A DNA stretch of 37,558 bases from Thermoanaerobaculia bacterium (GTDB lineage Bacteria > Acidobacteriota > Thermoanaerobaculia > Multivoradales > JAGPDF01): the NCBI GenBank assembly GCA_018057705.1, contig JAGPDF010000044.1, positions 1 to 37,558 of the forward strand, given 5' to 3'. The notes under the pieces are model-generated. The model was given only the letters and a program-made list of their open reading frames with translations, was not told the DNA's origin and ran no database searches. Below, one piece after another: positions 1 through 28,223 of the stretch (within the stretch, counting starts at the first letter, position 1; each line of letters starts with the position of its first letter). Position numbers and translations under genes: made by a program.

Positions 1-917
1 ACGATCCAGTGCGGCACCTGCTGGGCAGCGAGGAACTCCTCGGCGCCTTCTCCGGAGAGCATCGCGAGCGTCGACAGGAGTCCGGCCTCGGTGCAGTTGC
101 CCGCCGCGACCGTGACCAGCCGGGGCGCCGACACCACCGGCCACCCGGTGCGCGGGTCGAGGATGTGGCCGTAGCGGACGCCGTCCTTGAGGAGGAAGCG
201 CCGCGCGTCGCCACTGGTGCAGACGGCGCCCTGGCGGACCTCGAGGATCTGTTCGGTGCGGGCCGAGGCGGGATCGTCCACTCCCACCACCCACGGTTCG
301 CCGTCGCGGCGCGGGCCGGTCAGCACCAGATCTCCTCCCAGATTCACCAGGCAGGCGACTTCCGGGGCGGCCTGCCGCAGCAGCAGCGCCGCGCGGTCCG
401 CGGCATACTCCTTGCCGAGGCCGCCGAGATCGAGCTCCATCCCGGCGGGCAGGGTGAGGACAGGTCGTCGCCAGGTCACGCGCTGCCAGCCCACCAGCGG
501 CACGAGCTCAGCGACCTGGGCCGCGGTCGGAACCCGGTCGCTGCCGTCGAACTTCCAGGCGCGCCGGAGCACTCCGGAGGTGACGTCGAACGCACCTTCG
601 GAGATGCGGTGGCAGCGGGCGGCGAAGTCGAGCAGATCGGCGGTTTCGCTATCCACCGCGAACGGTTCGCCGGCGGCGGCGTGCAGCCGGGCCAGCACCG
701 AGTCGCTGCGGTAGCGCGAGAACTTGGCCTCGATGCGGTGGACCTCGACGGCGGCAATCTCGGTCAGCCGGCGCGTCACCCGCCGGTTGCCACCTTCGAC
801 GAGGACTTCACAGGGGCTGGCCATGGCGTCGAAGCGGCCCGCCCCATGGCCGGCCGCCCGGCGCACACGGAGCGTGCCCGGATCGAAGGTCAGCGCCGCC
901 TCAGAAGGCGCACCCAA
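1..917 (-). CDS. apbE: FAD:protein FMN transferase (ApbE family), 3' end beyond the window
   Basis: ApbE enzymes move FMN from FAD onto a Thr or Ser of an extracytoplasmic target protein. About 305 residues are visible and the C-terminus runs off the left edge. Family landmarks, numbered from the proposed TTG start: DAMASPCEV near 30, LDLGGLGKEYAADR near 163, NLGGDL, GEPWVVGVDDP, TSGDARRF near 235 and GHILDPRTG near 250. The motif after it reads CTEAGLLSTLAML, so the usual metal-binding Asp of the ADALxT motif is not in register. The TTG start overlaps the end of the DUF3570 gene by 17 nt. The first ATG (position 824) would fall at the conserved MGT position and is too late. No signal peptide is evident. 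It is the last visible gene of a four-gene operon, and the neighbouring barrel is the obvious candidate substrate. The family call is firm; the start is uncertain. Confidence 0.9.
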   Translation of the reverse strand, partial: MGAPSEAALTFDPGTLRVRRAAGHGAGRFDAMASPCEVLVEGGNRRVTRRLTEIAAVEVHRIEAKFSRYRSDSVLARLHAAAGEPFAVDSETADLLDFAARCHRISEGAFDVTSGVLRRAWKFDGSDRVPTAAQVAELVPLVGWQRVTWRRPVLTLPAGMELDLGGLGKEYAADRAALLLRQAAPEVACLVNLGGDLVLTGPRRDGEPWVVGVDDPASARTEQILEVRQGAVCTSGDARRFLLKDGVRYGHILDPRTGWPVVSAPRLVTVAAGNCTEAGLLSTLAMLSGEGAEEFLAAQQVPHWI

Positions 918-2196
918 ACTGCACCATCAGCGCATCCACGGCAGGAAAGAGCTCGTAGTCTGCCAGCACTCCGGGTTGCGCGCCGGAGACGGTGCCACTC
1001 TGCTCGTAGTACTCGAGCTTGATGTTCCACTCGCGATCGTGGCGCATCGGGCGCCCGTACTTGAGGCCGAACGTGACGCCAGTGAGGTCGCCAAGCCGGT
1101 AGTCGGCGCTGGCGTGGCCGGGAAGGGCTTCGCCCGCCGCGAGATAGCGGGTATAGAAACTGGCGGCGGACTGCTGGTAGAGCCGGGCGTGAGGCTGCAG
1201 GTAGCCCGCCCCGCCGAGGTCCCAGCGATAGCGCAGGTCGATCGTATGTGAGCGGATCCGCCAGTCGTCCCAATGGTAGCGATAGCTCACGTCCGCCGCA
1301 TCCTCGGAGCGCATCTGGCGTTTGTAGGCCACGTAGAGACTCTGTTTCGTTCGCGCGTCGGGCCGCGACTCGTAGAGCTGATCGACCGGGTTCCCCTGGT
1401 TCGGGCCGGGCAAGGGGTCGATCAGGCTCACCAGCTTGTAGGGATCCGTCAGGTAGCCGGAGCTCCTGCCGACGCTGTAGTTGATCTGTACCAGGGAGCG
1501 GCGGTCGAGGATCTGCGTCAGCCCGAACAGCAGGTCGTAGAGCGACTTCGTGTCCCCGCTCCCGATGCGATTGAGCGGTGGGACTCCGCCGCCGTCGTCC
1601 TCACCACCGCCGGGAACTTCGGGCGACATGCTGCCGAGCGGCTCCGGCAGGCCCCCCACCGGGTCGACGGTGTCGTAGCCGAGCGCGGCCCCCAGCGAGA
1701 GCGTGGTGTTGCGTTGGTTGAAGTCGCGTGCCAGGACAGCATTGACCGAGTAGGAACCGTAGTCGTATTCGGTCGAGACATTGGCACCGAACGTCGCTTT
1801 CCAGAGCGGCGAGAGCGGCTTCTCCCAGCTCATGTTGAGCGCCCAGCGCGTGTCGAGGAAACTCGTGTCGAGCGGGGTCTCCCCCGGCTGCGTGGCGTAG
1901 CTCCCGTGACCCGAAGGCGTGGTGTAGGTCTGCGCCCGGGAGGAGGGCGTCGCGCCGTTGGCCGAGGCGCCGGTCAGCGAGTCAACCGTGAGTCGGAAAT
2001 TCAACGCCTTGCCGTCACCCCGGTCCCAGCGCGCCGAGACCACAGGTTCGATAGCGGTGACCCGGTTGGTTTCGCTGTAATAGAGCACCTGCGAGTCGAA
2101 GCTCCAGCCGTCGGCCTGCGCTGCAGGGCAGCCGAGCAGCACGCCGGTCGCCGCGGCCAGCGCCAGGCGCACGCTGTTGTCCCGATTCAGTTGCAT
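901..2196 (-). CDS. DUF3570-type outer-membrane beta-barrel protein with a possible flavin attachment motif
   Basis: The product has 431 residues. A signal peptide of about 28 residues ends in AAQA, followed by alternating aromatic and polar strands typical of an outer-membrane barrel (FDSQVLYYSETNRV, VSARWDRGDGKALNFRLTV), and the protein ends in Phe (QFGCAF). The region fits DUF3570 as I remember it. Residues 72-78 read DSLTGAS, followed by NGAT. This resembles the D-x-x-T-G-A-T/S motif in which ApbE attaches FMN to the last Thr or Ser. The ATG overlaps the preceding DUF4266 gene by 10 nt, and the stop lies inside the start of apbE, so translation is probably coupled. The reading frame is open upstream to 2793, but that part is a shadow of the two upstream genes. 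Barrel and family calls are good; flavinylation is inference. Confidence 0.82.
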   Translation of the reverse strand: MQLNRDNSVRLALAAATGVLLGCPAAQADGWSFDSQVLYYSETNRVTAIEPVVSARWDRGDGKALNFRLTVDSLTGASANGATPSSRAQTYTTPSGHGSYATQPGETPLDTSFLDTRWALNMSWEKPLSPLWKATFGANVSTEYDYGSYSVNAVLARDFNQRNTTLSLGAALGYDTVDPVGGLPEPLGSMSPEVPGGGEDDGGGVPPLNRIGSGDTKSLYDLLFGLTQILDRRSLVQINYSVGRSSGYLTDPYKLVSLIDPLPGPNQGNPVDQLYESRPDARTKQSLYVAYKRQMRSEDAADVSYRYHWDDWRIRSHTIDLRYRWDLGGAGYLQPHARLYQQSAASFYTRYLAAGEALPGHASADYRLGDLTGVTFGLKYGRPMRHDREWNIKLEYYEQSGTVSGAQPGVLADYELFPAVDALMVQFGCAF

Positions 2197-2549
2197 CCGC
2201 AGCCTCCGCCCGCAAAGCCCGAGCCACCGCTCGAGGCCTCTTTGCTGAAATAGATGTGTTCGTCGAGCGCGAGCTCGAGCGGATAGCCGTCGAAGCGCAT
2301 GCAGCGTTTGGCGAGCTCGCCGCGGTCCCAGGGCTTCGCCCCCAGGCGGGGAGCGGCCGGGGTCGCTTCCGGAGACGTGGCCGCGGCCTGCTCCGTGGCG
2401 GCGGACGCGGACGATGCGGGCGTCCCGGACGTCGAGGGCGATGCCGATGACGTGGACGATGCGCAACCCGCGAGCGCGCTCGCCAGCATCAACGCGAGCA
2501 GCGCCAGAATGGGTCGAGTCCGGTCGATCCAGCGGATCCTGCAGATCAT
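2187..2549 (-). CDS. DUF4266-type small lipoprotein ending in GGGCGCN
   Basis: The product has 120 residues. It has an N-terminal hydrophobic stretch and a lipobox LAGC with the lipidated Cys at 29, then a low-complexity Ser/Ala/Thr linker (about 30-70). The conserved C-terminal block includes PWDRGELAKRCM, LDEHIYFSKE and the Gly-rich end GGGCGCN. This block matches DUF4266 from memory. The C-x-C at 117-119 sits at the very end of the chain and could bind a metal or take part in disulfide exchange. The ATG overlaps the TGA of the thioredoxin-like gene (ATGA), and the 3' end overlaps the barrel start, so the three proteins are made together. It is probably anchored in the outer or inner membrane facing the periplasm. 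Its molecular role is unknown; the neighbourhood suggests it works with the barrel and ApbE. Confidence 0.82.
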   Translation of the reverse strand: MICRIRWIDRTRPILALLALMLASALAGCASSTSSASPSTSGTPASSASAATEQAAATSPEATPAAPRLGAKPWDRGELAKRCMRFDGYPLELALDEHIYFSKEASSGGSGFAGGGCGCN

Positions 2550-3016
2550 GGGGCCTCCTCGTCGAGCAGTTGCGCGATCCTGCTTTGGAGCTTCGCCTCA
2601 TCGGCCTTGCGAAAACCGCTCTGACGGAAGCGGGTCTTGCCGTCCCGCGCGATGAGCACGGTGGTCGGCATCCCTTCGAGCCGCCACTGCTCGGCGAGCT
2701 TCCCGGCCGGGTCGAAGGCGATCCTGAAGCCGACCGGAGTCTCGGCGAGGAACTCCTCCGCGAGGCGACGATCCGTGTCGACGTTGACCGCAATCACCAC
2801 CAGGCCCCGTTTCCCGTGCTCTGCCTGGAGCCCGTCCATGTAGGGAAAGCTCGCACGACAGGGTTGACACCAGGAGGCCCAGAAATCGAGGTAGACGACC
2901 TGGCCGGCGTAGGCTGAGAGGTCAAGCGCAGCGAGCTCCTCGTAGGCGGCCGCTGGCGGTCCCAGGAGCACCACGAAGACGAATACGAGAATTCCCGTTC
3001 TCTTGGCCAGGCGCAT
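2546..3016 (-). CDS. TlpA/ResA-like periplasmic thioredoxin
   Basis: The product has 156 residues. A membrane or signal helix (TGILVFVFVVLLGPPAAA) is followed by a thioredoxin fold with WASWCQPC as the redox site, the cis-Pro segment EGMPTTVLI, and an N-terminal part typical of peroxiredoxin-like TlpA proteins (GQVVYLDF). Such proteins reduce or oxidise Cys pairs outside the cytoplasm. I chose the ATG at 3016 because it starts directly before the signal helix and has a purine-rich GGGAG stretch upstream; the frame is open further upstream to 3094. It is the first gene of the minus-strand operon and ends in an ATGA overlap with the DUF4266 gene. A TATACA hexamer lies about 31 nt upstream. A likely partner is the C-terminal C-x-C of the DUF4266 lipoprotein, which is inference. 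Confidence 0.9.
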   Translation of the reverse strand: MRLAKRTGILVFVFVVLLGPPAAAYEELAALDLSAYAGQVVYLDFWASWCQPCRASFPYMDGLQAEHGKRGLVVIAVNVDTDRRLAEEFLAETPVGFRIAFDPAGKLAEQWRLEGMPTTVLIARDGKTRFRQSGFRKADEAKLQSRIAQLLDEEAP

Positions 3017-3138: not shown

Positions 3139-5880
3139 TTGAACGACAACGAACGACGCGACCTCGGGCCCGGCAGTTCGCTCGCCCACTACCGCATCAC
3201 CGCCAAGCTCGGCGAAGGCGGCATGGGCGAGGTCTGGAGCGCCACCGACACCCGACTCGACCGCGAGGTCGCCATCAAAGTGCTGCCCGCCGCGTTAACA
3301 GAAGACAAGGAGCGCCTGGCACGTTTCGAACGCGAGGCGAAGCTCCTCGCCCAGCTCAACCACCCGAATATCGCCCAGATCTACGGCCTCGAAAGCAGCG
3401 GCGCGACCCACGCCCTCGTCATGGAGCTCGTCCCCGGCCCGACCCTGGCCGAACGCCTCGAATCCGGGCCTCTTCCCTTTTCTGAGAGCGTTTCTTTCGC
3501 GCTGCAGATCGCGCAGGCGCTCGAAGAGGCGCACGAGAAAGGCATCGTCCATCGTGACCTCAAGCCCCAAAACATAAAGGCTTCCAGTGAAGGCAAAGCC
3601 AAGGTCCTCGATTTCGGATTGGCCAAAGCGATGGAGGCAGCGCCCGGTTCCGCGTCCGCCACCGATCTCGCGCGTTCGCCGACGCTGATGAACTCCCCCA
3701 CCCTGACCGCGGTCCACGGCACCCAGCTGGGCATCATCCTGGGCACTGCGGCCTACATGGCGCCGGAGCAGGCGCGCGGCGCGGCCGTCGACAAGCGGGC
3801 CGACATCTGGGCGTTCGGAGTGCTCCTCTACGAGATGCTCACCGGCGAGCGTCTGTTCGAGGGCGACAGCGTCGTTGACACCCTCTCGGCGGTGATGCGC
3901 AAAGAGATCGATCTCGGTCGCCTCCCCGCCGGCACACCGGGGGTGATCCGGCAGCTCCTGCGCCGCTGCCTCGAACGCAACCCGAAACGGCGGCTGCACG
4001 ACATCGCCGATGCGCGGATCGTGCTCGAGGACGTATTGGCTGGCGTCGACGTCGACGAGCGGGGGGCACCGGTTGGGCGAGCGCAATCGCGCACGCCCGG
4101 GCGAACTCACCTGACCTGGCTCGCCGGTCTCCTCATCGCGGTCGCCGGCACCGCCCTTCTCACCCGCTTCGCGGGTGAACACGGCGCGGCGCCGGGCGAG
4201 CCGCAGCGCCTGGCCATCCATCTTGCCAACGACCAGGAACTGGCCATCGGCGGCAACTCCCTGCTGACCTTTTCGCCCGACGGGCGCAGCCTGGTGTTCG
4301 CCGTGATGGAGAAGGGTCGGCGAGCGATCTACCGGCGCGAGCTCGGCCAACGGGACGCCGAAAGGATCGAAGGCACCGAAGACGGCGAGGCGCCCTTCTT
4401 CTCGCCCGATGGCCGCTCGCTCGGCTTCGTCGCGCGGGGACAGGTGATGAAGGTCGCGGCCGCGGGGGGCCGCCCGGTCCGCATCGGCGAGGCGCGCGGC
4501 GCGGGCGGCGCGACCTGGCTCGACGACGGCACGATCGTGCTGGCGCCGATCTACTCCGACGGGCTCTTCCGCATGACCGCCGAGGGCGCCAACCTGACAC
4601 GGCTGACGACCCCCGATCGCGACGCCGGCGTGCTCGGCCACTGGTGGCCCGACGAGGTTCCCGGCGGACGGTGGGTGTTGTTCACCGCGTTCCGAACGCC
4701 GGTCGACACCTCGCGGGTCGGCGCTGTCGACCTCACCACAGGGGAAGTCCGCTGGCTCGTCGAGGGCGGCTTCTTCGGCCGCTACCTGGCGACCGGGCAT
4801 CTTCTCTACGCCAAGGGGCAGCGTCTCTACGCCGTGCCGTTCGACGCCGCGACGGCCACCGTGGGCGGTGCGGCCGTGACCGTTCTCGACGACCTGCTCG
4901 TCGAGCAGACTGGCGGCTTCGCCATGCTGGCGGTGTCGCGCCGCGGCACGCTCGCCTACGTCAGCGAGTCGCTCGGCCACCTGCCGACCGAGCTGGTCTG
5001 GCTCGATCGCGCCGGGATCGCAACGCCGGCGGCGACCGAGCGCCGGCGCTACCTGACCGTCGGCCTCTCGCCCGATGGCCGTCGGGCGGCTCTCACCGTG
5101 CAAGGCGAAAGCCGCGACCTGTGGGTTCTCTCGTTCGACCGGGGCACCCTCTCGCGCCTGACCAGTGGCGACGACACGGAGTTCGACCCCACATGGACGC
5201 CCGACGGCAACGAGCTGATCTACGTCGTGGACCGTCCGCCGTTCGAGCTCCATCGTATTGCCGCCGGAGCACCCGACTCCGGACGCCCGGTCTGGAACGA
5301 GCCGGCGGAGCTCGACCACACGACGCCGGTCGTCGCGCCCGATGGCCGGACGGTCGTCTACAGCCTGACCGAGGAGGGTACGGGGACGAATCTCTACGCT
5401 CGCCCGTTCGCCGGCGGCGAGCCGCGGGCGCTCCGCGCCAGCCGCGGCCAGGAGCTGTACGCCTCGTTCTCGGCGGACGGCCGTTGGCTCGCCTACGAAT
5501 CGGACGAAACCGGGCGCCCGGAGATCTACGTCGAGGCGTTTCCGGGACCGGGGGAGCGCGTCCAGGTCTCCGCCGACGGCGGGCGTCAGCCGCGCTGGGC
5601 CGCCAACGGCGAGCTCTTCTACCGTCATGACGACGAACTGCGCGTCGTCGTGACGCGCTTCGACGGGCGCTTTGCCTTCGAGCCGCCGCGCTCGCTGTTC
5701 CGGTATCCAATAAAGCAGAGCAGCAGCGGCGGCACCGAGGCCCACCTCTACGACGTCAGCGCCGACGGCCGGCGCCTCCTGGCCATTACCACCCCGGAAA
5801 CGCTGCGACCACGGCAGATCGACATCGTCACCGAATGGACGACCGAGCTCGTTCGCCTGATGTCCGGGGGCAAACCGTAG
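3139..5880 (+). CDS. Receptor-type Ser/Thr protein kinase with C-terminal PD40 propeller (K1)
   Basis: The product has 913 residues. The N-terminal kinase domain has the glycine loop GEGGMGEV (25-32), ATP Lys47, HRDLKPQN with catalytic Asp140, DFG at 158-160 and MAPEQ at 207-211. The activation loop carries the Ser/Thr-Pro run RSPTLMNSPTLT, plausible autophosphorylation sites. One membrane helix lies at about 325-343. The remainder is a WD40/TolB-like propeller made of repeats such as [22 protein letters not shown] and FSADGRWLAYES. The kinase should face the cytoplasm and the propeller the periplasm; the ligand is unknown. The start is TTG with no ribosome site. K1 differs from the other four in lacking the MIGxRLGPYE opening, with a longer N-terminus instead. 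It converges on the esterase gene, and a dead kinase 5' end lies just behind it. Confidence 0.93.
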   Translation: MNDNERRDLGPGSSLAHYRITAKLGEGGMGEVWSATDTRLDREVAIKVLPAALTEDKERLARFEREAKLLAQLNHPNIAQIYGLESSGATHALVMELVPGPTLAERLESGPLPFSESVSFALQIAQALEEAHEKGIVHRDLKPQNIKASSEGKAKVLDFGLAKAMEAAPGSASATDLARSPTLMNSPTLTAVHGTQLGIILGTAAYMAPEQARGAAVDKRADIWAFGVLLYEMLTGERLFEGDSVVDTLSAVMRKEIDLGRLPAGTPGVIRQLLRRCLERNPKRRLHDIADARIVLEDVLAGVDVDERGAPVGRAQSRTPGRTHLTWLAGLLIAVAGTALLTRFAGEHGAAPGEPQRLAIHLANDQELAIGGNSLLTFSPDGRSLVFAVMEKGRRAIYRRELGQRDAERIEGTEDGEAPFFSPDGRSLGFVARGQVMKVAAAGGRPVRIGEARGAGGATWLDDGTIVLAPIYSDGLFRMTAEGANLTRLTTPDRDAGVLGHWWPDEVPGGRWVLFTAFRTPVDTSRVGAVDLTTGEVRWLVEGGFFGRYLATGHLLYAKGQRLYAVPFDAATATVGGAAVTVLDDLLVEQTGGFAMLAVSRRGTLAYVSESLGHLPTELVWLDRAGIATPAATERRRYLTVGLSPDGRRAALTVQGESRDLWVLSFDRGTLSRLTSGDDTEFDPTWTPDGNELIYVVDRPPFELHRIAAGAPDSGRPVWNEPAELDHTTPVVAPDGRTVVYSLTEEGTGTNLYARPFAGGEPRALRASRGQELYASFSADGRWLAYESDETGRPEIYVEAFPGPGERVQVSADGGRQPRWAANGELFYRHDDELRVVVTRFDGRFAFEPPRSLFRYPIKQSSSGGTEAHLYDVSADGRRLLAITTPETLRPRQIDIVTEWTTELVRLMSGGKP

Positions 5881-7209: not shown

Positions 7210-8799
7210 ATGCCCCGGATCACCCGCCGCACCTTCGCCTGGCTGGCGGCGCTCGCGCCGGCTTCGATCGGCCGCGCTTTCGGCGCCCTCTGGAACGACG
7301 TCGGCCGACTCGGCGGCGGCGAGCACGAGCTCACGCTGCTCTATACCAACGACTTCCACAGCGCCTTCGAGCCGATCCCGGCCTACTGGCTCCCGGGCTC
7401 GCCACGGCTCGGCGGCGCCGCGCACCTCGCCACCCTGATCGACCGCCAGCGCGCCGCGGCGCGGACCACCTTCCTGCTCGACTCGGGCGACATGTTCACC
7501 GGCACGATGTCGGTTCTCACCCAGGGCGAAGCCTTGATGGAGATGATGACCGTGATGGGCTACGACGCGATGGGCGTCGGCAATCACGAGTTCGACTACG
7601 GCTGGGAGGTCTTCGAGCGCCAGATCACCCGGGTGCCGTTCCCGGTCCTCTGCTGCAATGTCCGCCACCTCGGTGCGCGGTCCCGCTTCTGCCGGCCCTA
7701 CACCCTCCTGGAGCGCAACGGCGTGCGCCTGGGCGTCATCGGGGTGATGGGCAGCCGGGCAGCGAAGTACACCATCATGCCGTCAAAGGTCGACGGGTTG
7801 CAGTTCACCGATCCCGTGGAGGAAGCGGCGGCCTGCGTCGAGGCTCTGCGGCCGGCCGTCGACCTCATCGTCGTGCTCGCCCACCAGGGCCTGCCCGGCC
7901 CGATGCAGACCGACGCCGAGAACGACCCCGACGTGCAGCGGCCGCTCGACGAGGACCTCGCCTTCTGCGGCGCCATCCCTGACATCGACGTCTACATCGC
8001 TGCGCATTCGCATCGCGGGCTCGAGACGCCTCTCGTCCATCCCGAAACCGGCACACTCCTCGTCCAGACCTACGGCTACGGCACGCGGCTCGGCGCGCTG
8101 CACCTGAAGCTCCGCGACCGCCGGGTGGTCGAGCATCGCGGCGAGCTGCTCAAGGTCTGGAGCGACGAGCTGCCGGCGCATCCCGCGGTGGCGGCGCGTG
8201 TCGGGCACTACCAGAAGATCGTCGGCAGTCAGATCGGCGGCGACATCGGGCGCGCAAGCGCGCGCTTCGTCCGCAAGTACAACACTGAGTCGCCGCTCGG
8301 CAGCTTCGTCGCCGACGTGATGCGGGAGCGTGCGCGCTGCGACGTCGGCTTCACCAACGCCGGTGGCCTGCGCGCCGACCTGCCGGCGGGTGGTCTGCAT
8401 CGCGGTCATGTCCTCGATGCGCTGCCTTTCATCAACACGCTCGTCACCCTCGACCTCTCCGGCAGAGACCTGCGCAGCGTCGTCGAGCAGGGCGCCTCGC
8501 TCACAGCCGGCATGGTCCAGGTTTCGGGGCTGCGCGCCGTCTACGATCTCGCCCGGCCGATCGGCAGCCGGGTGCTCGATCTTCGGGTGGGCGACCGCCC
8601 GGTCGAGGACGACCGGCGCTACCGCGTCGCCACCAACAGCTTCCTCGCCGAAGGCGGCGACCGCTACGAGTCGTTGCGCAACGGCCGGGAGCTCGCGCGC
8701 GACGCCCTCTTGAGCGACTGCGTCGTCGACCACCTCCGAGCCACGGGTACCATCGCGCCACCGCCGCCAGGTCGGCTGGTGCCCGCGCGCCGGACATAG
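7210..8799 (+). CDS. 5'-nucleotidase/UshA-family metallophosphoesterase, Tat-exported
   Basis: The product has 529 residues. It starts with a twin-arginine signal (TRRTFAWLAALAPA). The metallophosphatase domain shows all metal-site motifs: TNDFHS (Asp48, His50), SGDMF (Asp94), GNHEFD (Asn125, His126) and AAHSH (His266, His268). The C-terminal 5'-nucleotidase domain shows TESPLGSFVADVMRE, FTNAGGLRADLP, LPFINTLV and NSFLAEGGD. Enzymes of this type release phosphate or sulfate-linked groups from nucleotides and related esters outside the cytoplasm; the exact substrate is not readable. Tat export would suit loading of metals in the cytoplasm. It is monocistronic in appearance, with a stable inverted repeat behind it. 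Confidence 0.92.
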   Translation: MPRITRRTFAWLAALAPASIGRAFGALWNDVGRLGGGEHELTLLYTNDFHSAFEPIPAYWLPGSPRLGGAAHLATLIDRQRAAARTTFLLDSGDMFTGTMSVLTQGEALMEMMTVMGYDAMGVGNHEFDYGWEVFERQITRVPFPVLCCNVRHLGARSRFCRPYTLLERNGVRLGVIGVMGSRAAKYTIMPSKVDGLQFTDPVEEAAACVEALRPAVDLIVVLAHQGLPGPMQTDAENDPDVQRPLDEDLAFCGAIPDIDVYIAAHSHRGLETPLVHPETGTLLVQTYGYGTRLGALHLKLRDRRVVEHRGELLKVWSDELPAHPAVAARVGHYQKIVGSQIGGDIGRASARFVRKYNTESPLGSFVADVMRERARCDVGFTNAGGLRADLPAGGLHRGHVLDALPFINTLVTLDLSGRDLRSVVEQGASLTAGMVQVSGLRAVYDLARPIGSRVLDLRVGDRPVEDDRRYRVATNSFLAEGGDRYESLRNGRELARDALLSDCVVDHLRATGTIAPPPPGRLVPARRT

Positions 8800-8901: not shown

Positions 8902-9369
8902 ATGCAATCGCCTCGGGTTACGCGCTGGTGGAGCTCGGTCGCGCTCGCGACGATTCTTCAGGTCTCTCCTGCCGTCGCTGCACAGCGGTTTCACGCTCGT
9001 TTCGACCCGATCCCCGCGGGGCCGGTCCTGATCTTCAGCGACGACTTCGAGAGTGCCGGCACCTGCGATTGGGTCTCGACCGCGCCCTGCGCGCTCTACA
9101 TCCTCACGATTCCGCCGGGAACCGACAGCGGCGATCACGGCTTCCCGACCGTGATCCAGCTCCAGGTCGGTGCTGTCCTGCACATCGTCAACGGCGATCC
9201 GACGCCGCACCGGATCCATGCCAACAACAACATTGGACTCCTGCACCAGCCAACCTCGATGACCCAGGGCCAGGAGTACGTAGGGACGGTCAACCAGACA
9301 GGTCAGGACACTCTCTACTGCCACGACCACGGGACGGCCAGCGGCGAGCTCATCATCATCGTTCCCTAG
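8902..9369 (+). CDS. Secreted cupredoxin-like (plastocyanin-type) small protein
   Basis: The product has 155 residues. It has a signal peptide ending near AVAA (27), a short segment with the motif IFSDDFESAGTCDWVS (44-59), then a single cupredoxin fold. Probable copper ligands are His103 or His106 (TPHRIHANN) and the cluster Cys140-His141-Asp-His143 (YCHDHG). No Met axial ligand follows in the usual place. Such proteins carry electrons or hold copper outside the cytoplasm. A GAGGAGG ribosome site lies 5 nt before the ATG, unlike the apparently leaderless genes nearby. The D-x-F-E-x6-W motif recurs at the C-terminus of the LamG-like protein at 35110, so it may be a shared surface-protein signature. 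No partner oxidase is adjacent. Confidence 0.83.
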   Translation: MQSPRVTRWWSSVALATILQVSPAVAAQRFHARFDPIPAGPVLIFSDDFESAGTCDWVSTAPCALYILTIPPGTDSGDHGFPTVIQLQVGAVLHIVNGDPTPHRIHANNNIGLLHQPTSMTQGQEYVGTVNQTGQDTLYCHDHGTASGELIIIVP

Positions 9370-9444: not shown

Positions 9445-12201
9445 TTGATCGGCAAACGACTGGGCCCCTACGAGGTCACCGCCAAGCTCGGCGAGGGCGG
9501 CATGGGTGAGGTCTATCGCGCCACCGACACCAGGCTCAAGCGCGAAGTGGCGATCAAAGTGCTGCCGGCGGCGTTCACCGCCGACCCGGAACGGCTCGCC
9601 CGCTTCGAGCGCGAAGCGCAGCTCCTCGCGCAGCTGAACCACACCAACATCGCGCAGATTTACGGCCTCGAGACCAGCGGCGCGATCCACGCCCTCGTGA
9701 TGGAGCTCGTCCCCGGTCCGACGCTCGCCGAGCGCCTCGAATCCGGGCCTCTTCCCTTTGCCGAGAGCCTTTCTTTGGCGCTGCAGATCGCGCAGGCGCT
9801 CGAAGAGGCCCACGAGAAGGGGATCGTCCATCGTGACCTCAAACCCCAGAACATCAAGGCTCCCAGTGAAGGCAAGGCCAAGGTCCTCGACTTCGGGTTG
9901 GCCAAGGCGATGGAGGCGACCCCCGGCGCCGCGTCCGCCGCCGACCTCGCGCGCTCGCCGACGCTGATGAACTCCCCCACCCTCACTGCGGTCCGCGGCA
10001 CGCAGATCGGCATGATCCTGGGCACCGCGGCCTACATGGCGCCGGAGCAGGCAAAGGGCAAGACGGTCGACAAGCGGGCCGACATCTGGGCGTTCGGCGT
10101 CGTGCTCTTCGAGATGCTGACCGGTCGCCCCCTGTTCGGCGGCGAGACCGTTTCCGAGACGATCGCCGAAGTCCTCAAGCAGGAGATCGACTTCACGAAG
10201 TTGCCTGCAGGCCTTCCAGCCAGTGTCGGGCGGCTCCTTCGGCGGTGCCTCGAACGCGATCCGCAGCGCCGCCTGCGCGATATCGGCGAGGCGCGACTGC
10301 TGATCGAAGGCGCGCTCGCCGGCGAACCGGAGGCCGCGGGAGGGTCGGTCGAGGGGGCTGCCTGGAAGATCTCGACTCCTTCGGGATCGTTCCTGGTCAC
10401 CAGCTACCGCATCGGGATCGCCGCCGCGATCGCCGGAGCCGCCCTGATCGGTCTCGCGGCGGGCCGTCTCGTGCAGTCTTCTGAATCCGCCCGGACCGCG
10501 AAGGCGATCCGCGCCACGATCGCGCTCCCGCAAGGGCTCGAGCTCGACGGAGTCGGAGCGCCCGAGATCGCGATTTCTCCGGACGGCTCGACGCTCGCCT
10601 TTCTGGCGCGGGGCGAGAGCGGGCCGCAACAACTGTACGTGCGGCGCCTCGACGGCGACGAAGCGAGGTTGGTGCCCGGAAGCGAAACCGCCGAGGGCCC
10701 GTTCTTCTCGCCCGATGGCAAGTGGGTCGCCTTCGCGGTCGGCGTCTCCGGCCTGGGCGGCGGCGTTCCGCGTGAGCTGCGGAAGCAGTCGCTCGAAACC
10801 GGGCTGACCCAGACGGTCGCTCCGATCCAGGACTATTTCGGCGGCGCCTGGCGGAACGACGGCACGATCTTCTTCGTCGACGCCACCGACGGAACCGTCT
10901 CGTCGGTTCCGGCGAGCGGCGGCAAGCCGACGCTCGCGGTCGCCAGGGCGAGCGAGCGCGGCGAGTCGCCGCCGGTGGCGCTCTTCTGGCCCGAGCTGCT
11001 GCCCGACGGAGGCGCGCTCGTCTTCAGCACGCTCGGGCGCCCGACCGGCGAGCTGGTGGTGCTCGACCTCGGCTCGGGCGTTCTCACCCGCCTCGGCGTG
11101 AACGGCATGAGCCCACGCTACCTGCCGACCGGGCACCTCGCCTTCGGCGGCGAGAGCGGATCGCTCGAGGTCGTGCCGTTCGACGCCGACGAGCGTCGGA
11201 TCCTCGGCGCGCCGGTGGCGATGCTCGCCGGCCTCGCGCGGGCGCGGAATCGATCGGCGACCTTCGCGGTCGCCGCGGACGGGACTCTGGTCTATGCGAC
11301 CGGCTACTTGAGCAACAGTCGTCACGAGCCGATGCGAGTGGTGCGCGCCTCGCGCGGCGGGCTGTTCGAAACCCTGCCGATCGAGCCCGATCTCTACGGC
11401 CGCGCGCTCGCGTCCACGCCGGACGGGCGGCGCCTCGCGCTGGCGCGCGAAGACCGTGGCGCCTGGGTCGTCGATCTCGCGCGGGGCACTCGGACCCGGG
11501 TCGCCGGCGACGAGATCACCGGCGCGATGGGTGTCGCCTGGTCGCCCGGCGGCGACCAGCTCGCCTGGATCGCGAAGCCGCCCGAAGGCGACGACGTCGC
11601 CGTGATCGTTCAGCCGAGCGACGGACGAGGAGCTCCGCGGGCGCTCGGCGTGAGGGACAGCGATCTCAGCGTCGCCGGCTGGATGCCGGACGGCCGCGAG
11701 CTGGTCGTCAGTCGTTGGGGAGCCTCGGCGACGATCGAGCGCGTGCCCCTCGCCGGCGAGAGCGAGGTCGTGTGGCGGGATCCCGGCTCGGTCAGCTCGA
11801 GCGCTCTGTCGCCGGACGGCGAACTCGTCGCTTTCGAATCGGACGCCGGAGAGGGTTACGAGATCTACCTCCTCTCCCTCGCCACGGGCGCACGCACGCA
11901 GGTGACCGGGACGGGCGGGCGCGCTCCGTTCTGGTCGCACGACGGTCGCGAGCTCTTCTTTCGACGCGGCCCGGCGGTCCTCGCGGTTGAGGTTTCGACC
12001 GCGGCCGACGGCTCGCCCCGCATCGGGCGCGAAGTGCGGCTGTTCGACTGGCCCGCGGCCTACAAGGTCGTCGCTGGAGCCGACGGCTCCTTCTACGGCA
12101 CCGAGCCGGTTCCCGGCGCCGCGACGCAGACGAGCCTCGAGCTCCAGACCGGCTGGCTCGAGAGCGTGAGGCGGCTGGCGAGCGCGGGAAAGAGGAACTG
12201 A
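9445..12201 (+). CDS. Receptor-type Ser/Thr protein kinase with C-terminal PD40 propeller (K2)
   Basis: The product has 918 residues and opens with [19 protein letters not shown]. Kinase landmarks: Lys38, HRDLKPQN with Asp131, DFG at 149-151 and MAPEQ near 198. One membrane helix lies at about 322-341. The propeller half begins near 365 with repeats such as IAISPDGSTLAFLA, FFSPDGKWVAFAV, LSPDGELVAFES and WSHDGRELFFRRG. The TTG start has no ribosome site. K3 begins 30 nt after its stop, so the two are probably co-transcribed. From 10054 to 10193 the DNA is identical to K3 (12841-12980), while the propellers differ, which points to recent duplication or gene conversion limited to the kinase half. 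The signal sensed is unknown. Confidence 0.93.
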   Translation: MIGKRLGPYEVTAKLGEGGMGEVYRATDTRLKREVAIKVLPAAFTADPERLARFEREAQLLAQLNHTNIAQIYGLETSGAIHALVMELVPGPTLAERLESGPLPFAESLSLALQIAQALEEAHEKGIVHRDLKPQNIKAPSEGKAKVLDFGLAKAMEATPGAASAADLARSPTLMNSPTLTAVRGTQIGMILGTAAYMAPEQAKGKTVDKRADIWAFGVVLFEMLTGRPLFGGETVSETIAEVLKQEIDFTKLPAGLPASVGRLLRRCLERDPQRRLRDIGEARLLIEGALAGEPEAAGGSVEGAAWKISTPSGSFLVTSYRIGIAAAIAGAALIGLAAGRLVQSSESARTAKAIRATIALPQGLELDGVGAPEIAISPDGSTLAFLARGESGPQQLYVRRLDGDEARLVPGSETAEGPFFSPDGKWVAFAVGVSGLGGGVPRELRKQSLETGLTQTVAPIQDYFGGAWRNDGTIFFVDATDGTVSSVPASGGKPTLAVARASERGESPPVALFWPELLPDGGALVFSTLGRPTGELVVLDLGSGVLTRLGVNGMSPRYLPTGHLAFGGESGSLEVVPFDADERRILGAPVAMLAGLARARNRSATFAVAADGTLVYATGYLSNSRHEPMRVVRASRGGLFETLPIEPDLYGRALASTPDGRRLALAREDRGAWVVDLARGTRTRVAGDEITGAMGVAWSPGGDQLAWIAKPPEGDDVAVIVQPSDGRGAPRALGVRDSDLSVAGWMPDGRELVVSRWGASATIERVPLAGESEVVWRDPGSVSSSALSPDGELVAFESDAGEGYEIYLLSLATGARTQVTGTGGRAPFWSHDGRELFFRRGPAVLAVEVSTAADGSPRIGREVRLFDWPAAYKVVAGADGSFYGTEPVPGAATQTSLELQTGWLESVRRLASAGKRN

Positions 12202-15869: not shown

Positions 15870-18770
15870 ATGAAACTCTTCACCGCGACCAGGGGAATCC
15901 TGGCCCTTTGTTCCCTCCTCGTCGCAACTCTCGCTCTGGCGCTCGGAGCCGCGCCTCCAGGCGCCCATGCACAGGCAGGAGCCCCGGCGAGCGGCCCGTC
16001 CGCCGCTTCCCTGGTCAAGAGGCCGCCGGCGCCCCAGGCGAAGGCGTACGAAAAGCCCAAGGTCGCGAAGAAGGTCGAACGCAGCAAGGGCGCCGTCGCG
16101 GAGCGCGACTGGACGGTCATGTACTACCTCGACGCCGACTGCAACCTCGAGGCGCCGATGCTCGACGATATCGACGAGATGGAGAGGATCGGCTCGACGG
16201 ACAACGTGAACCTGCTCGTCCTCCTCGATCGCACCCCCCAGCACGACAAGCGTGACGGCAACTGGTCGAACAGCCGCCTGCTCTTCGTCACGCGCGACAA
16301 CACGAACGGCAAGATCAAGTCCGAGGTGCTCGAGAACCTCAAGGAGATGGACACCTCCAATCCCGAGACACTCGTCGGGTTCGTGGCCTTCGCGATGCAG
16401 AACTTCCCCGCCAAACACTACGCCCTGGTTCTCGGCAACCACGGCGGCACCTGGATGGGGATGCTCAACGACGACACCGACAACGAGGCCGGGATGCGGC
16501 TCGCCCCGTTCATCGACGGCCTGGCGGCGCTCAAGGCGGCCGGAGCTCCGAAGCTCGACCTGATCGCCTTCGACATGTGCCTCATGGCCCAGGTCGAAGT
16601 GATGGACGCCATCGCACCCTATGCCTCCTATGGCGTTGCCTCCGAAGAGCTCGAGCCGGGCAACGGCTATCCGAACCACCGGGTGCTCCATGCGCTCACC
16701 CGCAACCCGAAGATGTCGCCGCGCGAGTTCGCACAGTCGATGGTGAAGGAGTGGACCGCCTCCTACGCCGAAGAGGGTGAGGCGACCGTGACCAGCTCGG
16801 CGACCGACCTCGGCAAGGTCCCGGACCTGGTGGCCGCCATCGACGCGCTGGCCGCCGCCCTCGGCCAGGCGCCCGAGTCCGTGCAGGTGGCGGCCGCCCG
16901 GGCGCGCGCCTCGACGCACTACTACGGCGGCGAGCAGGGCGGCGGCGAGATCGCCTCCTTCGACGTCGGCGAGTTCGCCGGCATCCTCGCCCGGATGCCG
17001 GAAGCGGCCGCCATCAAGCCGCAGGCGGATGCGGTCGCTGCCGCGGTGAAGGCAGCCGTCGTCGAGCACGGCGAAGGCGAGGCCCACAAGGGCTCGACAG
17101 GCCTCGCGATCTACTTCCCCGCCAACCGGAAGGTCCATGCCGACTACGCGTCGATCCCTTTCGCCCGCGGCGGCTGGGACGAGTTCCTGAAGAGAGGCTT
17201 CTCCGGCGCCGCAGCGGCGGCCGCGACAGTGACGATCTCCGCGCCCGACCCCGGACAGAACCATCGCCTGGGCCAGGGGCTCAAAGTGACCGCCCAGGTC
17301 GCGGGGGCGCCCGCCAGCATCCGGGCCTCGATCGGCTTCCGGGACAAGGACGGCAGCATCACGACGATCAGCGACGAGGAGGTCGCGAGCCCCGGCGCCT
17401 GGAAGGACGGCACGACGTTCAGCTACACCGTCCGCCCGAAGGTCCGCGGCATCGGCGACGGCAAGAACACGCGCCTCGCACCGACGACGCCGCTCTCGCC
17501 GGGGAGCCCCTACCTGCGCGCCGACGCCTCCTACAACTCGCTGATGGGAGATCTGCAGGTCGCGACCATCTTCGATTCGCGCACCGGCAAGCTCGAGACG
17601 ATCTTCTGCCTGAACGAGAACGGCGCCAGCAACCCGACGGCGGTGCATCCGGTCAAGGGCGAGAAGCTCGTCTTCTACCAGACCGTCTCGTCCGGCGACG
17701 ACAAGCCGCTGCGCTACCGCCCGGTGCCCGCCCTGGTGAGCTCCGGCAGCCAGCAGGGGAAGGCGAAGGGAAAGGCGAAAGACGGCTCCGGTCTGCGGTT
17801 GGTCGACACCGGTCTGCCCGCCGGCGACTACATCCTGTCGCTCACCGCCTACAACGGCGCGGGCGCCCCGATGGGTCGCTCCCACCTGCAGTTGACCGCC
17901 GGAGGCGAAGCGGTCGCTCCGGGCGTCGGCTACCCCAACTACGGCTACCCGGCAGTGCATGGGTACGACCTGCAGTATGTGGACCTCACCCTGATCATTC
18001 CGGTCGCGGAGTACGGCCAGTTCGAAGCCACCTGGAGCGACTACAACTTCATGGCGGCGGCGCAGGCCGACGACTATTCGACCCAGGATCTCGTCTTTCT
18101 CGACGAAGTGGCGCTCGACCCGCAGGAGCTGGCTTTCGACGAAGAGAACTGGTCCGACGAGTTCGAGGACGACTCGCTCGAGCACGACGGCGATGTCGAT
18201 GACGATGGGACTCTGGACGCCAGCGACCTCGACGACGACAACGACGGCACTCCGGACGCCGCCGATCTCGACGACGACAACGACGGCGAACCGGACGCGG
18301 AGGAGGAGGACGAAGACAACGATGGCACCTCGGACGACGAGGATCTGGACGACGACAACGACGGCACTCCGGACGCAGAGGATCTCGACGACGACAGCGA
18401 CGGCATTCCGGATGCCGAGGACGAAGAGGCCGACGACGAAGGCGAGGACGAAGCCGCCGACGACGAGGGTGAAGACGAAGAGGCCGACGACGAGGGTGAA
18501 GGCGAAGAGGCCGACGACGAAGGCGAAGACGAAGCCGCCGACGACGAGGGTGAAGACGAAGAGGCCGACGTCGAAGGCGAAGACGAAGCCGCCGACGACG
18601 AGGGTGAAGGCGAAGAGGCCGACGACGAAGGCGAAGACGAAGCCGCCGACGACGAGGGTGAAGACGAAGAGGCCGACGTCGAAGGCGAAGACGAAGCCGC
18701 CGACGACGAGGGTGAGGACGACGGGGGTGAGGAGGTCGAAGAGGATTACGGCGACGACGAAGAGCGCTGA
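15870..18770 (+). CDS. Secreted clostripain-family (peptidase C11) protease with acidic repeat tail
   Basis: The product has 966 residues. It has a signal peptide (about 1-36), a Pro/Lys-rich linker, then a caspase-like C11 domain starting at DWTVMYYLDADCNLE. The catalytic dyad is visible as His191 in LGNHGGTW and Cys237 in FDMCLM. C11 enzymes such as clostripain cut after Arg or Lys and often need calcium. A beta-rich region follows (about 440-740). Residues 773-851 are thrombospondin-type-3 calcium-binding repeats (DLDDDNDGTPDA), and 852-950 are 11 acidic nonapeptides. The gene has an AAGGAG ribosome site. The very acidic tail may bind calcium, keep the enzyme on the surface or be a flexible spacer. 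It converges on the glucan synthase gene. Confidence 0.9.
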   Translation: MKLFTATRGILALCSLLVATLALALGAAPPGAHAQAGAPASGPSAASLVKRPPAPQAKAYEKPKVAKKVERSKGAVAERDWTVMYYLDADCNLEAPMLDDIDEMERIGSTDNVNLLVLLDRTPQHDKRDGNWSNSRLLFVTRDNTNGKIKSEVLENLKEMDTSNPETLVGFVAFAMQNFPAKHYALVLGNHGGTWMGMLNDDTDNEAGMRLAPFIDGLAALKAAGAPKLDLIAFDMCLMAQVEVMDAIAPYASYGVASEELEPGNGYPNHRVLHALTRNPKMSPREFAQSMVKEWTASYAEEGEATVTSSATDLGKVPDLVAAIDALAAALGQAPESVQVAAARARASTHYYGGEQGGGEIASFDVGEFAGILARMPEAAAIKPQADAVAAAVKAAVVEHGEGEAHKGSTGLAIYFPANRKVHADYASIPFARGGWDEFLKRGFSGAAAAAATVTISAPDPGQNHRLGQGLKVTAQVAGAPASIRASIGFRDKDGSITTISDEEVASPGAWKDGTTFSYTVRPKVRGIGDGKNTRLAPTTPLSPGSPYLRADASYNSLMGDLQVATIFDSRTGKLETIFCLNENGASNPTAVHPVKGEKLVFYQTVSSGDDKPLRYRPVPALVSSGSQQGKAKGKAKDGSGLRLVDTGLPAGDYILSLTAYNGAGAPMGRSHLQLTAGGEAVAPGVGYPNYGYPAVHGYDLQYVDLTLIIPVAEYGQFEATWSDYNFMAAAQADDYSTQDLVFLDEVALDPQELAFDEENWSDEFEDDSLEHDGDVDDDGTLDASDLDDDNDGTPDAADLDDDNDGEPDAEEEDEDNDGTSDDEDLDDDNDGTPDAEDLDDDSDGIPDAEDEEADDEGEDEAADDEGEDEEADDEGEGEEADDEGEDEAADDEGEDEEADVEGEDEAADDEGEGEEADDEGEDEAADDEGEDEEADVEGEDEAADDEGEDDGGEEVEEDYGDDEER
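18186..18422 (+). repeat. Thrombospondin-type-3-like calcium-binding repeats (coding)
   Basis: About five copies of D-x-D-x-D-G-x-x-D-A-x-D-L-D-D-D form residues 773-851 of the protease. The spacing of Asp residues matches TSP3 calcium loops (DNDGTPDAADLDDDND). Confidence 0.85.
18423..18719 (+). repeat. Eleven 27-bp tandem repeats coding acidic nonapeptides
   Basis: Eleven in-frame copies of a 27-bp unit code EEADDEGED and close variants (EAADDEGED, EEADVEGED, EEADDEGEG). Order matters: a four-unit block (108 bp) with the variants in the same sequence occurs twice in a row from 18504, differing only in the last residue. This higher-order structure points to duplication of a block by slippage or unequal crossing over. 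Confidence 0.95.
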
Positions 18771-18857: not shown

Positions 18858-21800
18858 CTACCTCGCCTGGGCCTCACCGAGGACGACGGCCAGACGATGC
18901 ACCGCCCCGTCGTCGGCGAGGGGAACGGCGGCCGGATCGACGCGGACGCCGTCGAGCAGTGCGCTCGCCACGCCACGGCAGCGCTGGTGCGGATTCTCGA
19001 CGGTGATCTCGTAGCGCGAACCGCCGTAGCGGAAGGTGAGCGAGAAGCCGCTCCACGCCGCAGGGATGCAGGGGGCGAGAGCGAACGTCTTTCCTGCGAG
19101 GCGCAGTCCGAGAATGCTCTCCAGCCCGGCGCGATAGAGCCAGCCTGCCGCGCCGGTGTACCAGCTCCAGCCGCCCCGCCCGGCATGCTCGGGATGGGCG
19201 TAGACGTCGCCCGCGAGCACATAGGGCTCGGCCTTGTAGCGCTCGACGTCGGCGCGGCTGCGGCTGTGGTTGATCGGATTGAGCATGTGGAAGAGCTCGA
19301 CCGCCTCGTCGCCGCTCCCCAGCGCCGCGACGGCCATCACGACCCAGATGGCGGCATGGGTGTACTGTCCGCCGTTCTCGCGCACTCCGGGCGGATAGCC
19401 GCGGATGTAGCCGGGGTCCTGGGCCGAAACGTCGAACGGCGGCTGTAGCAGCAGCACCTGGGAGGTCCCGCGCTTGACGAGGTGCGCCCGCACCGCGTCG
19501 AGCGCGCGATCGGCAAACTTCAACGGGACGGCCCCAGAGAGCACCGCCCACGATTGGGGCAGGGAGTCGATCCGGCACTCGTCGCGTGCCGCCGACCCGA
19601 GCGCCGAACCGTCGTCGTAGTAGCCGCGCCGGTACCACTCGCCATCCCAGGCAAGCTCCAGGGCGTTGACGAGCCGCTCCGCCTGGGTTCGATAGCGCTC
19701 GGCGCGCGCCTCGTCGCCGCGCTCGGCGGAGAGAGCCGCGAAATCTCCGAGAATGCCGTGGAGGAAGAAGCCGAGCCAGGTGCTCTCGCCGCGTCCCTCT
19801 CTCCCGACCCGATTCATGCCGTCGTTCCAGTCCCCGCTGCCCATCAGGGGGAGACCGTGGCCACCCACTGCCTGCGAGCGATCGATCGCCAGCAGGCAGT
19901 GATCGAACAGCGAGCCGGATTCGCCAGCGAGCCCGGGAAGGAAATAGGCCTCGTCCACTCCGGGCTCGAGCACCGGGGCGGCGAGGTAGGGCACGCGTTC
20001 CTCCAGTACCGCGAGATCGCCGGTCGCACGAACGTAATGCGCGACGGCGAACGGCAGCCAGAGGAGGTCGTCCGAGCAGCGTGTTCGCGTTCCCTGGCCC
20101 CCGGGCGGGTGCCACCAGTGCTGGACGTCGCCCTCCACGAACTGTCGTGCCGCCGCGCGCAGAAGGTGCTCCCGTGTGAGATCCGGCCGGGTGAAGAGCA
20201 GCGCCAGCGTGTCCTGCAGTTGATCGCGGAATCCGAAGGCGCCGCCCGGCTGGGAGTAACCCGACCGCGCCCAGATGCGGCAACCGAGCGTCTGGTAGAG
20301 CAGCCACCGGTTCATCATCACGTCGAACGAATCGTCCGGCGTCTTCACCTCGATCCTCCCCAGCATCTCGTCCCAGGCGGCGAGAGCGCCGTCGCGGGCG
20401 ACCTCGGCGGCGGCGACCGTGCCATGTCGGGCGATGAGCGCGCGAGCATGCGCCGCGTCGTCGCCTTCTCCGAGCAGGACGACGAGGTAGCGCACCTCGC
20501 CCGGCGCGAGCTCGAGGTCGACCGCGAGCGCCGCGCAGGGATCGAGGCCGGCGCCGAAGTCGCCCGCGAGCTCGGCCAGTGCGAGGGCCGCCGGTGCGGC
20601 GAGCGAGCCGTTGCGTCCCAGAAACGAAGCGCGGTCGCCGCTCGCCCCCCGCTGTGCCTCGCTCGTCGAGAGAAAAGCGACCCGCCTGGCGAAATCGCGC
20701 CCGAACGGGTTCCTCGCCAGCACCGCTCCGGTCTCGCTGTCGAGCTCGGTGATCACCTGTCGGTGCTGGTCCGGAGACGGCGGACCGAGAGCCCATTCGC
20801 AGTAGGCGAAGGCGCGGAGGCGCCGCGGCCGGTCGCTTTCATTGGTGAGCGTGAGCAGCGAGAACTTCACCGGTTCGGTCCGGTGCACGAAGATCTCGAG
20901 CTCGTGCCGGATGCCCTCCGCGAGGCGGGAGAAGCGGGTGATGCCCGCGGCGTGCCGGACGGTCCATCGAGCCTCCGTCCGCATCCCCCCTGCGTGCGCC
21001 AGGCCGGAAGGCCCGGCCGCTCCGCGATAGCGCATCGGTCCCGGCGTCGGCGTCCAGAGGGCTCCGCTGTCCTCGTCCCGCAGGTAGATCGCCTCGCCCG
21101 TCGGATCGCTGACCGAATCGCCAGCGTGCGGCGTCAGCCGGTTTTCCCGACTGTTCATCGACCAGGTGAAGGCCGAGCCCGAGGAGCTCACGATCGTCCC
21201 GAAGTCCGGATTGGCGATCACGTTCGTCCATGGCAACGGTGTTTCGCGGTCGCCATCGAGCACGATGCGGTACTCCCTGCCACCCTCCACGAAGCCGCCG
21301 AGATGGTTGGCCAGGAGCAGCGGCTCGGCCCCTCGCCGGCGCTCCGCCTCGCCGGCGAGTTCGGGCGATCGAGCGCTCCTCTCGGCGCCACCACTCTCGT
21401 CCCTTCGCGCCTGCACCTCGAGACGCTGGGCCGGGAAGGCGGGCAGAGGGGGATCCGGCCGGTCGAGATGCTGGGCGAGCGACCCGCGACCGCTGTCGAG
21501 GACGGCGGCCGCAGCCGCCGCAAAAAGCGCGCGCTCCGCCTCCGCCAGGCTCCCGCCGCGCAGCAGGAAGGCTCCGCCGGAACGGTGTCTCCAGGAGCGC
21601 CAGGGCCCGTCGTCGAGCAACGCTTCGAGCTGCGTCTGCATCTCGTCGAGATAGCTCGCCGGGTTGTCGTTGATCAGCACGACGTCCGCGGCGAGCCCCT
21701 TGAGGCGCCAGTACTCCTGCGCCTGCAGGACCTGGCGGGCCAATTGCAAGTCGTCGCCCTCCCCCACCCGAACCAGCAGGATCGGCAGGTCGCCCGAGAC

Positions 21801-28136: not shown

Positions 28137-28207
28137 CCGCCCAGGAGTGTGGCGCCACGGCCCGGCACAGCTGGAGGCGGAAGCCGACAGTGCGGTCCGG
28201 GGTCGGG

Positions 28208-28213
28208 TAGGAT
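28208..28213 (+). promoter_or_regulatory. Possible -10 box (TAGGAT) of kinase gene K4
   Basis: TAGGAT ends 10 nt before the TTG start, and the flanks nearly match those of the K2 promoter at 9422-9450. No Shine-Dalgarno sequence lies between. Confidence 0.5.
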
Positions 28214-28223
28214 CAACGGTGAA

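Follow-up and report, generated by a model that had tools for sequence, protein, structure and literature searches.

A four-gene operon at the start of the window

We analysed a stretch of 37,558 nucleotides from a Thermoanaerobaculia bacterium of the phylum Acidobacteriota (assembly GCA_018057705.1, contig JAGPDF010000044.1, C44 in our numbering), referred to below, at its full length, as the window. Positions 1-3016 hold four head-to-tail genes on the minus strand, which encode, in this order, a TlpA-like thioredoxin, a DUF4266 lipoprotein, a DUF3570 outer-membrane beta-barrel and an ApbE flavin mononucleotide (FMN) transferase (Table 1). Judged by its sequence, the operon is a variant form of the published DUF3570 flavinylation operon (Méheust et al. 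2021; PMC8238504). The set is real, conserved and largely known; what deserves to be followed is a clade of ApbE enzymes that lack a signal peptide and have an altered metal site, together with a predicted flavin site on the surface side of the barrel.

Table 1. Features of the DUF3570 operon, in window coordinates.
Feature	Position	Strand	Basis and remarks
TlpA/ResA-like periplasmic thioredoxin, 156 residues	2546..3016	minus	Signal peptide, WCQPC; Redoxin PF08534 (9e-22), AhpC-TSA (2.2e-17)
DUF4266 lipoprotein, 120 residues	2187..2549	minus	PF14086 (2e-20); lipobox Cys29, tail GGGCGCN
DUF3570 outer-membrane beta-barrel, 431 residues, presumed ApbE substrate	901..2196	minus	PF12094 (2.9e-130)
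Canonical [S/T]GA[S/T] flavin-acceptor motif of DUF3570, T75-G76-A77-S78	1963..1974	minus	Aligned with the motif kept in relatives
Possible second acceptor of DUF3570, T92-T-P-S95-G96	1909..1923	minus	Alignment of relatives
ApbE FMN transferase, C-terminus incomplete	1..917	minus	PF02424 (2.6e-68); TTG start inferred; KE/G-type metal site (see text)

The genes overlap as a sequence-only reading of this DNA had described: the thioredoxin and DUF4266 genes by an ATGA of 4 nucleotides (2546-2549), DUF4266 and DUF3570 by 10 (2187-2196), and DUF3570 and apbE by 17 (901-917). The last overlap depends on the inferred TTG at 917, which is the first start codon past the preceding stop; an in-frame GTG near residue 17 would abolish it. 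The same reading correctly recognised the WCQPC of the thioredoxin, a protein that resembles ResA in NCBIfam with a score below the cut-off. Its lipoprotein "ending in C-x-C" does possess the CxC as well as a lipobox (LAGC), with a final Asn placed after the CxC. The C-terminus of ApbE is absent because the window begins at the first base of the contig, and the remaining part matches PF02424 at 230.9 bits (curated cut-off, 25.6). In the closest relative, another member of the Thermoanaerobaculia (locus L003) whose DUF3570 protein is 95% identical, ApbE is complete and the operon stops after it.

Conservation of the set and its relation to published clusters

The thioredoxin, DUF4266 and DUF3570 genes stand together in 44 of 48 loci that were found by DUF3570 alone, and ApbE is present in most of them; three of the four exceptions are interrupted by a contig end. 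These loci span Acidobacteriota, Pseudomonadota, Krumholzibacteriota, Planctomycetota and Verrucomicrobiota, and the three genes also occur together in all 20 additional loci of Acidobacteriota. The gene order, on whose recurrence in other genomes the sequence-only reading had staked its proposal of a coupled module, is thus conserved across phyla, with variants such as DUF3570-apbE-tlpA-DUF4266 in Verrucomicrobiota and apbE-DUF4266-DUF3570-tlpA in a second lineage of Acidobacteriota. Co-occurrence, which it had proposed to look for, is also found among 396 genomes of the phylum, where DUF3570 is present in 34, DUF4266 in 33 and both in 32 (hypergeometric P ~1e-43, a value that treats as independent genomes that share phylogeny). 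Within the window's own family, a strong DUF3570 match is confined to its own genus, and one other genome has a weak match; such a patchy distribution suits transfer or loss.

The families had been regarded as known separately, with no settled function for the set. The function is indeed unsettled, but the set itself has been published: Méheust et al. reported 285 DsbD clusters, typically with ApbE, DUF3570, a thioredoxin-like protein and DUF4266, and 316 further clusters of such genes without DsbD, and drew attention to the CXC of DUF4266 (PMC8238504). The operon studied here shares with them the four components, the CXC and an [S/T]GA[S/T] motif. It differs in that its ApbE has no signal peptide and a remodelled metal site, in that one canonical acceptor motif is accompanied by a second one containing Pro, and in that its thioredoxin matches Redoxin and AhpC-TSA instead of PF13899, with DsbD unlinked. 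The main text of PMC8238504 gives no count of clusters sharing the ApbE variant, and no other paper on DUF3570, DUF4266 or their Pfam numbers was found in the literature searched.

The predicted barrel and its putative flavin-acceptor sites

The DUF3570 protein, which has a signal peptide and ends in Phe431, was modelled with AlphaFold2 on an alignment of 42 relatives. The prediction is an antiparallel barrel of 16 strands (predicted local distance difference test, pLDDT, 88.1; predicted template modelling score, pTM, 0.83) that matches chains of outer-membrane barrels among the solved structures, with VIA-align Z values up to 21.9; many such barrels matched and none stood out, so no functional relative can be named. 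Both termini are periplasmic in the model, periplasmic turns have 2-5 residues and all loops longer than 5 residues are extracellular. The motif T75-G-A-S78 ends strand 3 at the extracellular side, and S78 is predicted to face the lumen near the extracellular mouth.

Conservation of the strand residues is highest in the lumen of the extracellular third (0.757; permutation p 1e-4), followed by the middle lumen (0.701) and the periplasmic lumen (0.516). Lipid-facing residues range from 0.446 to 0.561, the lowest value being that of the residues at the same height as the extracellular-third lumen. The conserved cluster lies around the flavin site, at the extracellular end of the barrel. Among the periplasmic turns, NQRN is invariant and might serve as a docking point for a partner.

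Regarding the acceptor motifs, T75GAS78 conforms to [S/T]GA[S/T] and the second one, T92-T-P-S95, is degenerate. Ser95 (T-x-P-S-G) is kept in all aligned relatives that have this loop, mostly with Pro in the place of Ala, and the site aligns with the second motifs TSAS and TGAS of other lineages. Two such motifs are covalently flavinylated in the DUF3570 protein of Chlorobium luteolum, as seen by in-gel UV fluorescence (PMC8238504), the type of assay that the sequence-only reading had suggested. An inserted barrel would keep both sites away from any enzyme of the cytosol or periplasm, and attachment of the flavin would therefore have to precede insertion. The C. luteolum protein was flavinylated even though it was largely in the insoluble pellet (PMC8238504), and a folded barrel therefore seems unneeded for the reaction.

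A clade of ApbE enzymes without signal peptide and with an altered metal site

The ApbE of the window retains the Lys, TSG and His motifs and the T-fold PF02424 domain of the periplasmic FMN transferases ApbE, Ftp and FmnB. It differs from them in two positions of the metal site: the Gly after the Lys is replaced by Glu, and the Mg-binding Asp, which corresponds to D301 of FmnB, is replaced by Gly (AGLLST, compared with ADALST of FmnB). We refer to this combination as KE/G. Of the 90 ApbE rows in our alignment, 53 show Lys-Glu at the site of the canonical Lys-Gly, and all but one of them (52 rows) also have Gly replacing the Asp of ADALAT; the remaining row, L091, is broken in that region. The Gly aligns with FmnB D301, a residue that in Listeria binds both Mg ions and is required for activity (PMC8906456). 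The 50 non-duplicate KE/G rows form one clade that implies one change (support 100/94, in a tree whose bootstrap is not fully settled). This subgroup has apparently not been described before. The KE/G enzymes are probably active, as their sequences keep the His, TSG and Lys motifs, and the Glu may substitute for Asp as a metal ligand. The Asp-to-Gly and Gly-to-Glu exchange offers a natural variant for testing the metal chemistry of ApbE.

The second peculiarity of these enzymes is their N-terminus. When the in-frame upstream sequence is read as well, neither the ApbE of the window nor any of more than 50 KE/G relatives has a convincing signal peptide, and the former has no lipobox either. In 12 genomes of relatives, canonical ApbEs carry a hydrophobic signal segment and KE/G enzymes do not. 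The KE/G enzymes are very probably cytosolic. The sequence-only reading placed the whole redox set outside the cytoplasm; this holds for a conserved flavin and thiol set with an outer-membrane barrel and does not extend to ApbE, which has no signal peptide, so that the four-gene set is not wholly outside the cytoplasm. The C. luteolum ApbE of the published assay was described as signal-peptide-truncated (PMC8238504) and may thus be of the other, non-KE/G type.

It is in our view improbable that the ApbE is brought into the periplasm by some means other than a classical signal peptide and acts on DUF3570 there, ahead of barrel insertion, as in the known periplasmic systems. Such a route would agree with the characterised ApbEs that modify exported proteins, which are periplasmic lipoproteins (PMC12052999), and with seven DUF3570 loci of another gene order (the L096-L103 lineage), whose ApbE is canonical and bears a signal. 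However, the more than 50 KE/G enzymes lack a convincing hydrophobic N-terminal segment that other ApbEs of the same genomes possess, and an ApbE acting in the cytosol is not unprecedented, since that of the Klebsiella fumarate reductase also has no signal peptide and its flavinylation is presumed to be cytosolic (PMC12052999). The difference is that the Klebsiella substrate is a soluble cytosolic enzyme, whereas the presumed substrate here is exported to the outer membrane.

It is also conceivable, though very improbable, that the KE/G enzyme is inactive or acts on another protein and that a canonical ApbE encoded elsewhere in the genome flavinylates DUF3570. The Asp replaced here is the one required in Listeria FmnB (PMC8906456), and this genome does have additional ApbE matches; the motif pattern gave no match in two ApbEs on contig C2. 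Against this stand the close association of the two families, with 49 of the 50 KE/G rows in the tree lying within DUF3570 clusters, the three Woeseiaceae without an adjacent apbE that keep a KE/G copy elsewhere in the genome, and the conservation of the other active-site residues, together with the additional Glu adjacent to the metal site.

The row outside this association is a second copy in the L034 locus (Sulfurimicrobium), where a divergent KE/G-type ApbE gene (7280-8305) lies past dsbD, beside the four-gene operon. A further KE/G ApbE (L151), in genome G410, is unlinked to DUF3570. The broken row L091 (5399-6222) is an ApbE split over two matched stretches, its metal-site region lost in frame through a frameshift or an assembly error.

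A possible route for electrons across the outer membrane

The DUF4266 lipoprotein is the component that would connect the thioredoxin with the barrel. Across 37 aligned relatives, the tail that begins at Glu104 shows no gaps down to the terminal Asn, with GGGCGCN invariant; behind the lipobox, the protein of the window has some 40 residues of Ser/Thr/Ala/Pro-rich linker that are absent from most relatives. Folded alone, the protein gave no confident fold (pLDDT 63), a result that does not by itself prove disorder. By standard geometry (3.3-3.4 Å per extended residue and a strand tilt of about 40 degrees), the distance from the periplasmic rim up to S78 is approximately 35-40 Å, and the stretch Glu104-Cys117, 13 residues, could cover as much as about 44 Å. 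By this arithmetic, a dithiol arm formed by the DUF4266 tail could reach the flavin, and direct transfer from a CxC that did not leave the periplasm would have to bridge too great a distance.

As for the supply of electrons, dsbD directly follows apbE in Gallionellales and Sulfurimicrobium, and this linkage supports a DsbD-type protein as the probable source. DsbD is encoded neither in the window nor in L003, and the genome has one DsbD_TM match elsewhere, unlinked to the operon.

On balance, we lean towards the following mechanism. A cytosolic ApbE would attach FMN while the DUF3570 precursor is still unfolded; the precursor, with its flavin, would then be exported and enter the outer membrane in the usual way. 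In the periplasm, a DsbD-type protein would hand reducing equivalents to the TlpA-like thioredoxin, which would deliver them to the CxC of DUF4266, whose Gly-rich tail would reach up the barrel so that the CxC hands electrons to the FMN. The final step would be a transfer from reduced FMN to an acceptor outside the cell, for which Fe(III) or a different metal is plausible.

Several points weigh against this proposal. The orientation of S78 into the lumen was deduced from the alternation of hydrophobic strand columns and not from model coordinates. Signal peptides were called by a simple hydrophobicity scan and sequence reading, not by SignalP, and two KE/G rows, L034 and L086, exceed the hydrophobicity threshold, albeit through far-upstream segments in the overlap with DUF3570. 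Without its Mg-binding Asp, the transferase might work less well or differently. Fur boxes were not enriched when the upstream regions of the operon were scanned in the window and 23 relatives, and most neighbourhoods, including that of the window, have no metal gene; the acceptor is for these two reasons a guess.

Conduits of the porin-cytochrome (Mtr) type move electrons over the outer membrane by means of a barrel and redox partners. The likeness to the system proposed here is in logic only, as the latter would have no haem, a flavin presumably bound covalently to the barrel, and dithiol partners. In its most specific form, the proposal is a haem-free conduit in which the cytosolic ApbE clade, with its relocated metal ligand, loads FMN before export and the CxC tail of DUF4266 is a swinging dithiol arm inside the barrel that reduces a flavin near the surface; we put this form forward tentatively and consider it, taken as a whole, rather unlikely. 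Flavinylation of exported proteins is generally regarded as a periplasmic or cell-surface event. If a cytosolic ApbE clade is tied to an outer-membrane barrel, FMN-loaded precursors would pass through the export channel. A flavin near the extracellular mouth would also provide the published DUF3570 system, which lacks a function, with a concrete hypothesis, namely haem-free electron export.

Genomic neighbours and the electron acceptor

Genes for an extracytoplasmic-function (ECF) sigma factor, FecR and a TonB receptor lie beside four to seven operons of Woeseiaceae and related organisms, a cupredoxin gene lies near one operon (L004), and cytochrome b561 is encoded near others. Together with MbnP, these neighbours give a hint of metals. 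They are also compatible with a module whose task at the outer membrane is to handle metals or to repair thiols; the CxC tail might, for instance, bind and reduce copper or iron, and the flavin would be a local cofactor and not an exit route. Metal binding by the GGGCGC tail is conceivable, some relatives have genes for MbnP, a cupredoxin, FecR or a TonB receptor nearby, and VIT1 iron transporters are present in 25 of the published clusters (PMC8238504). We regard this explanation as possible but rather unlikely, given that the metal-linked neighbours are confined to some lineages, that Fur boxes are not enriched in the set scanned, and that the flavin site, at the extracellular end, is ringed by the conserved cluster of the barrel.

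In L018 (2147-6180), and also in L022, L024 and L025, the genes for the ECF sigma factor, FecR and the TonB-dependent receptor are directly upstream of TlpA-DUF4266-DUF3570; in L015, L032 and L038 the receptor gene is divergent or apart. The MbnP-family protein is encoded two genes downstream of the L039 operon (10039-10836), and a similar-looking gene follows the operon of L027. A membrane gene near the Alteromonadaceae loci was considered as an FTR1-like iron permease, a reading that was dropped as the gene has no Pfam match.

Other genes in the window

The proteins of two long genes, at 3139-5880 and 28149-30950, look from their sequence like Ser/Thr kinases whose C-terminal parts resemble beta-propellers; about 120 base pairs separate the first gene from the operon, and the two are divergent. 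A secreted, cupredoxin-looking protein without a match in the Pfam search (8902-9369) adjoins a 5'-nucleotidase-like gene. A GH94 protein of 2,842 residues with a glucoamylase domain, at 18861-27389, resembles cyclic beta-glucan synthases, and a protein of 965 residues with a clostripain (Peptidase_C11) domain is encoded at 15870-18767.

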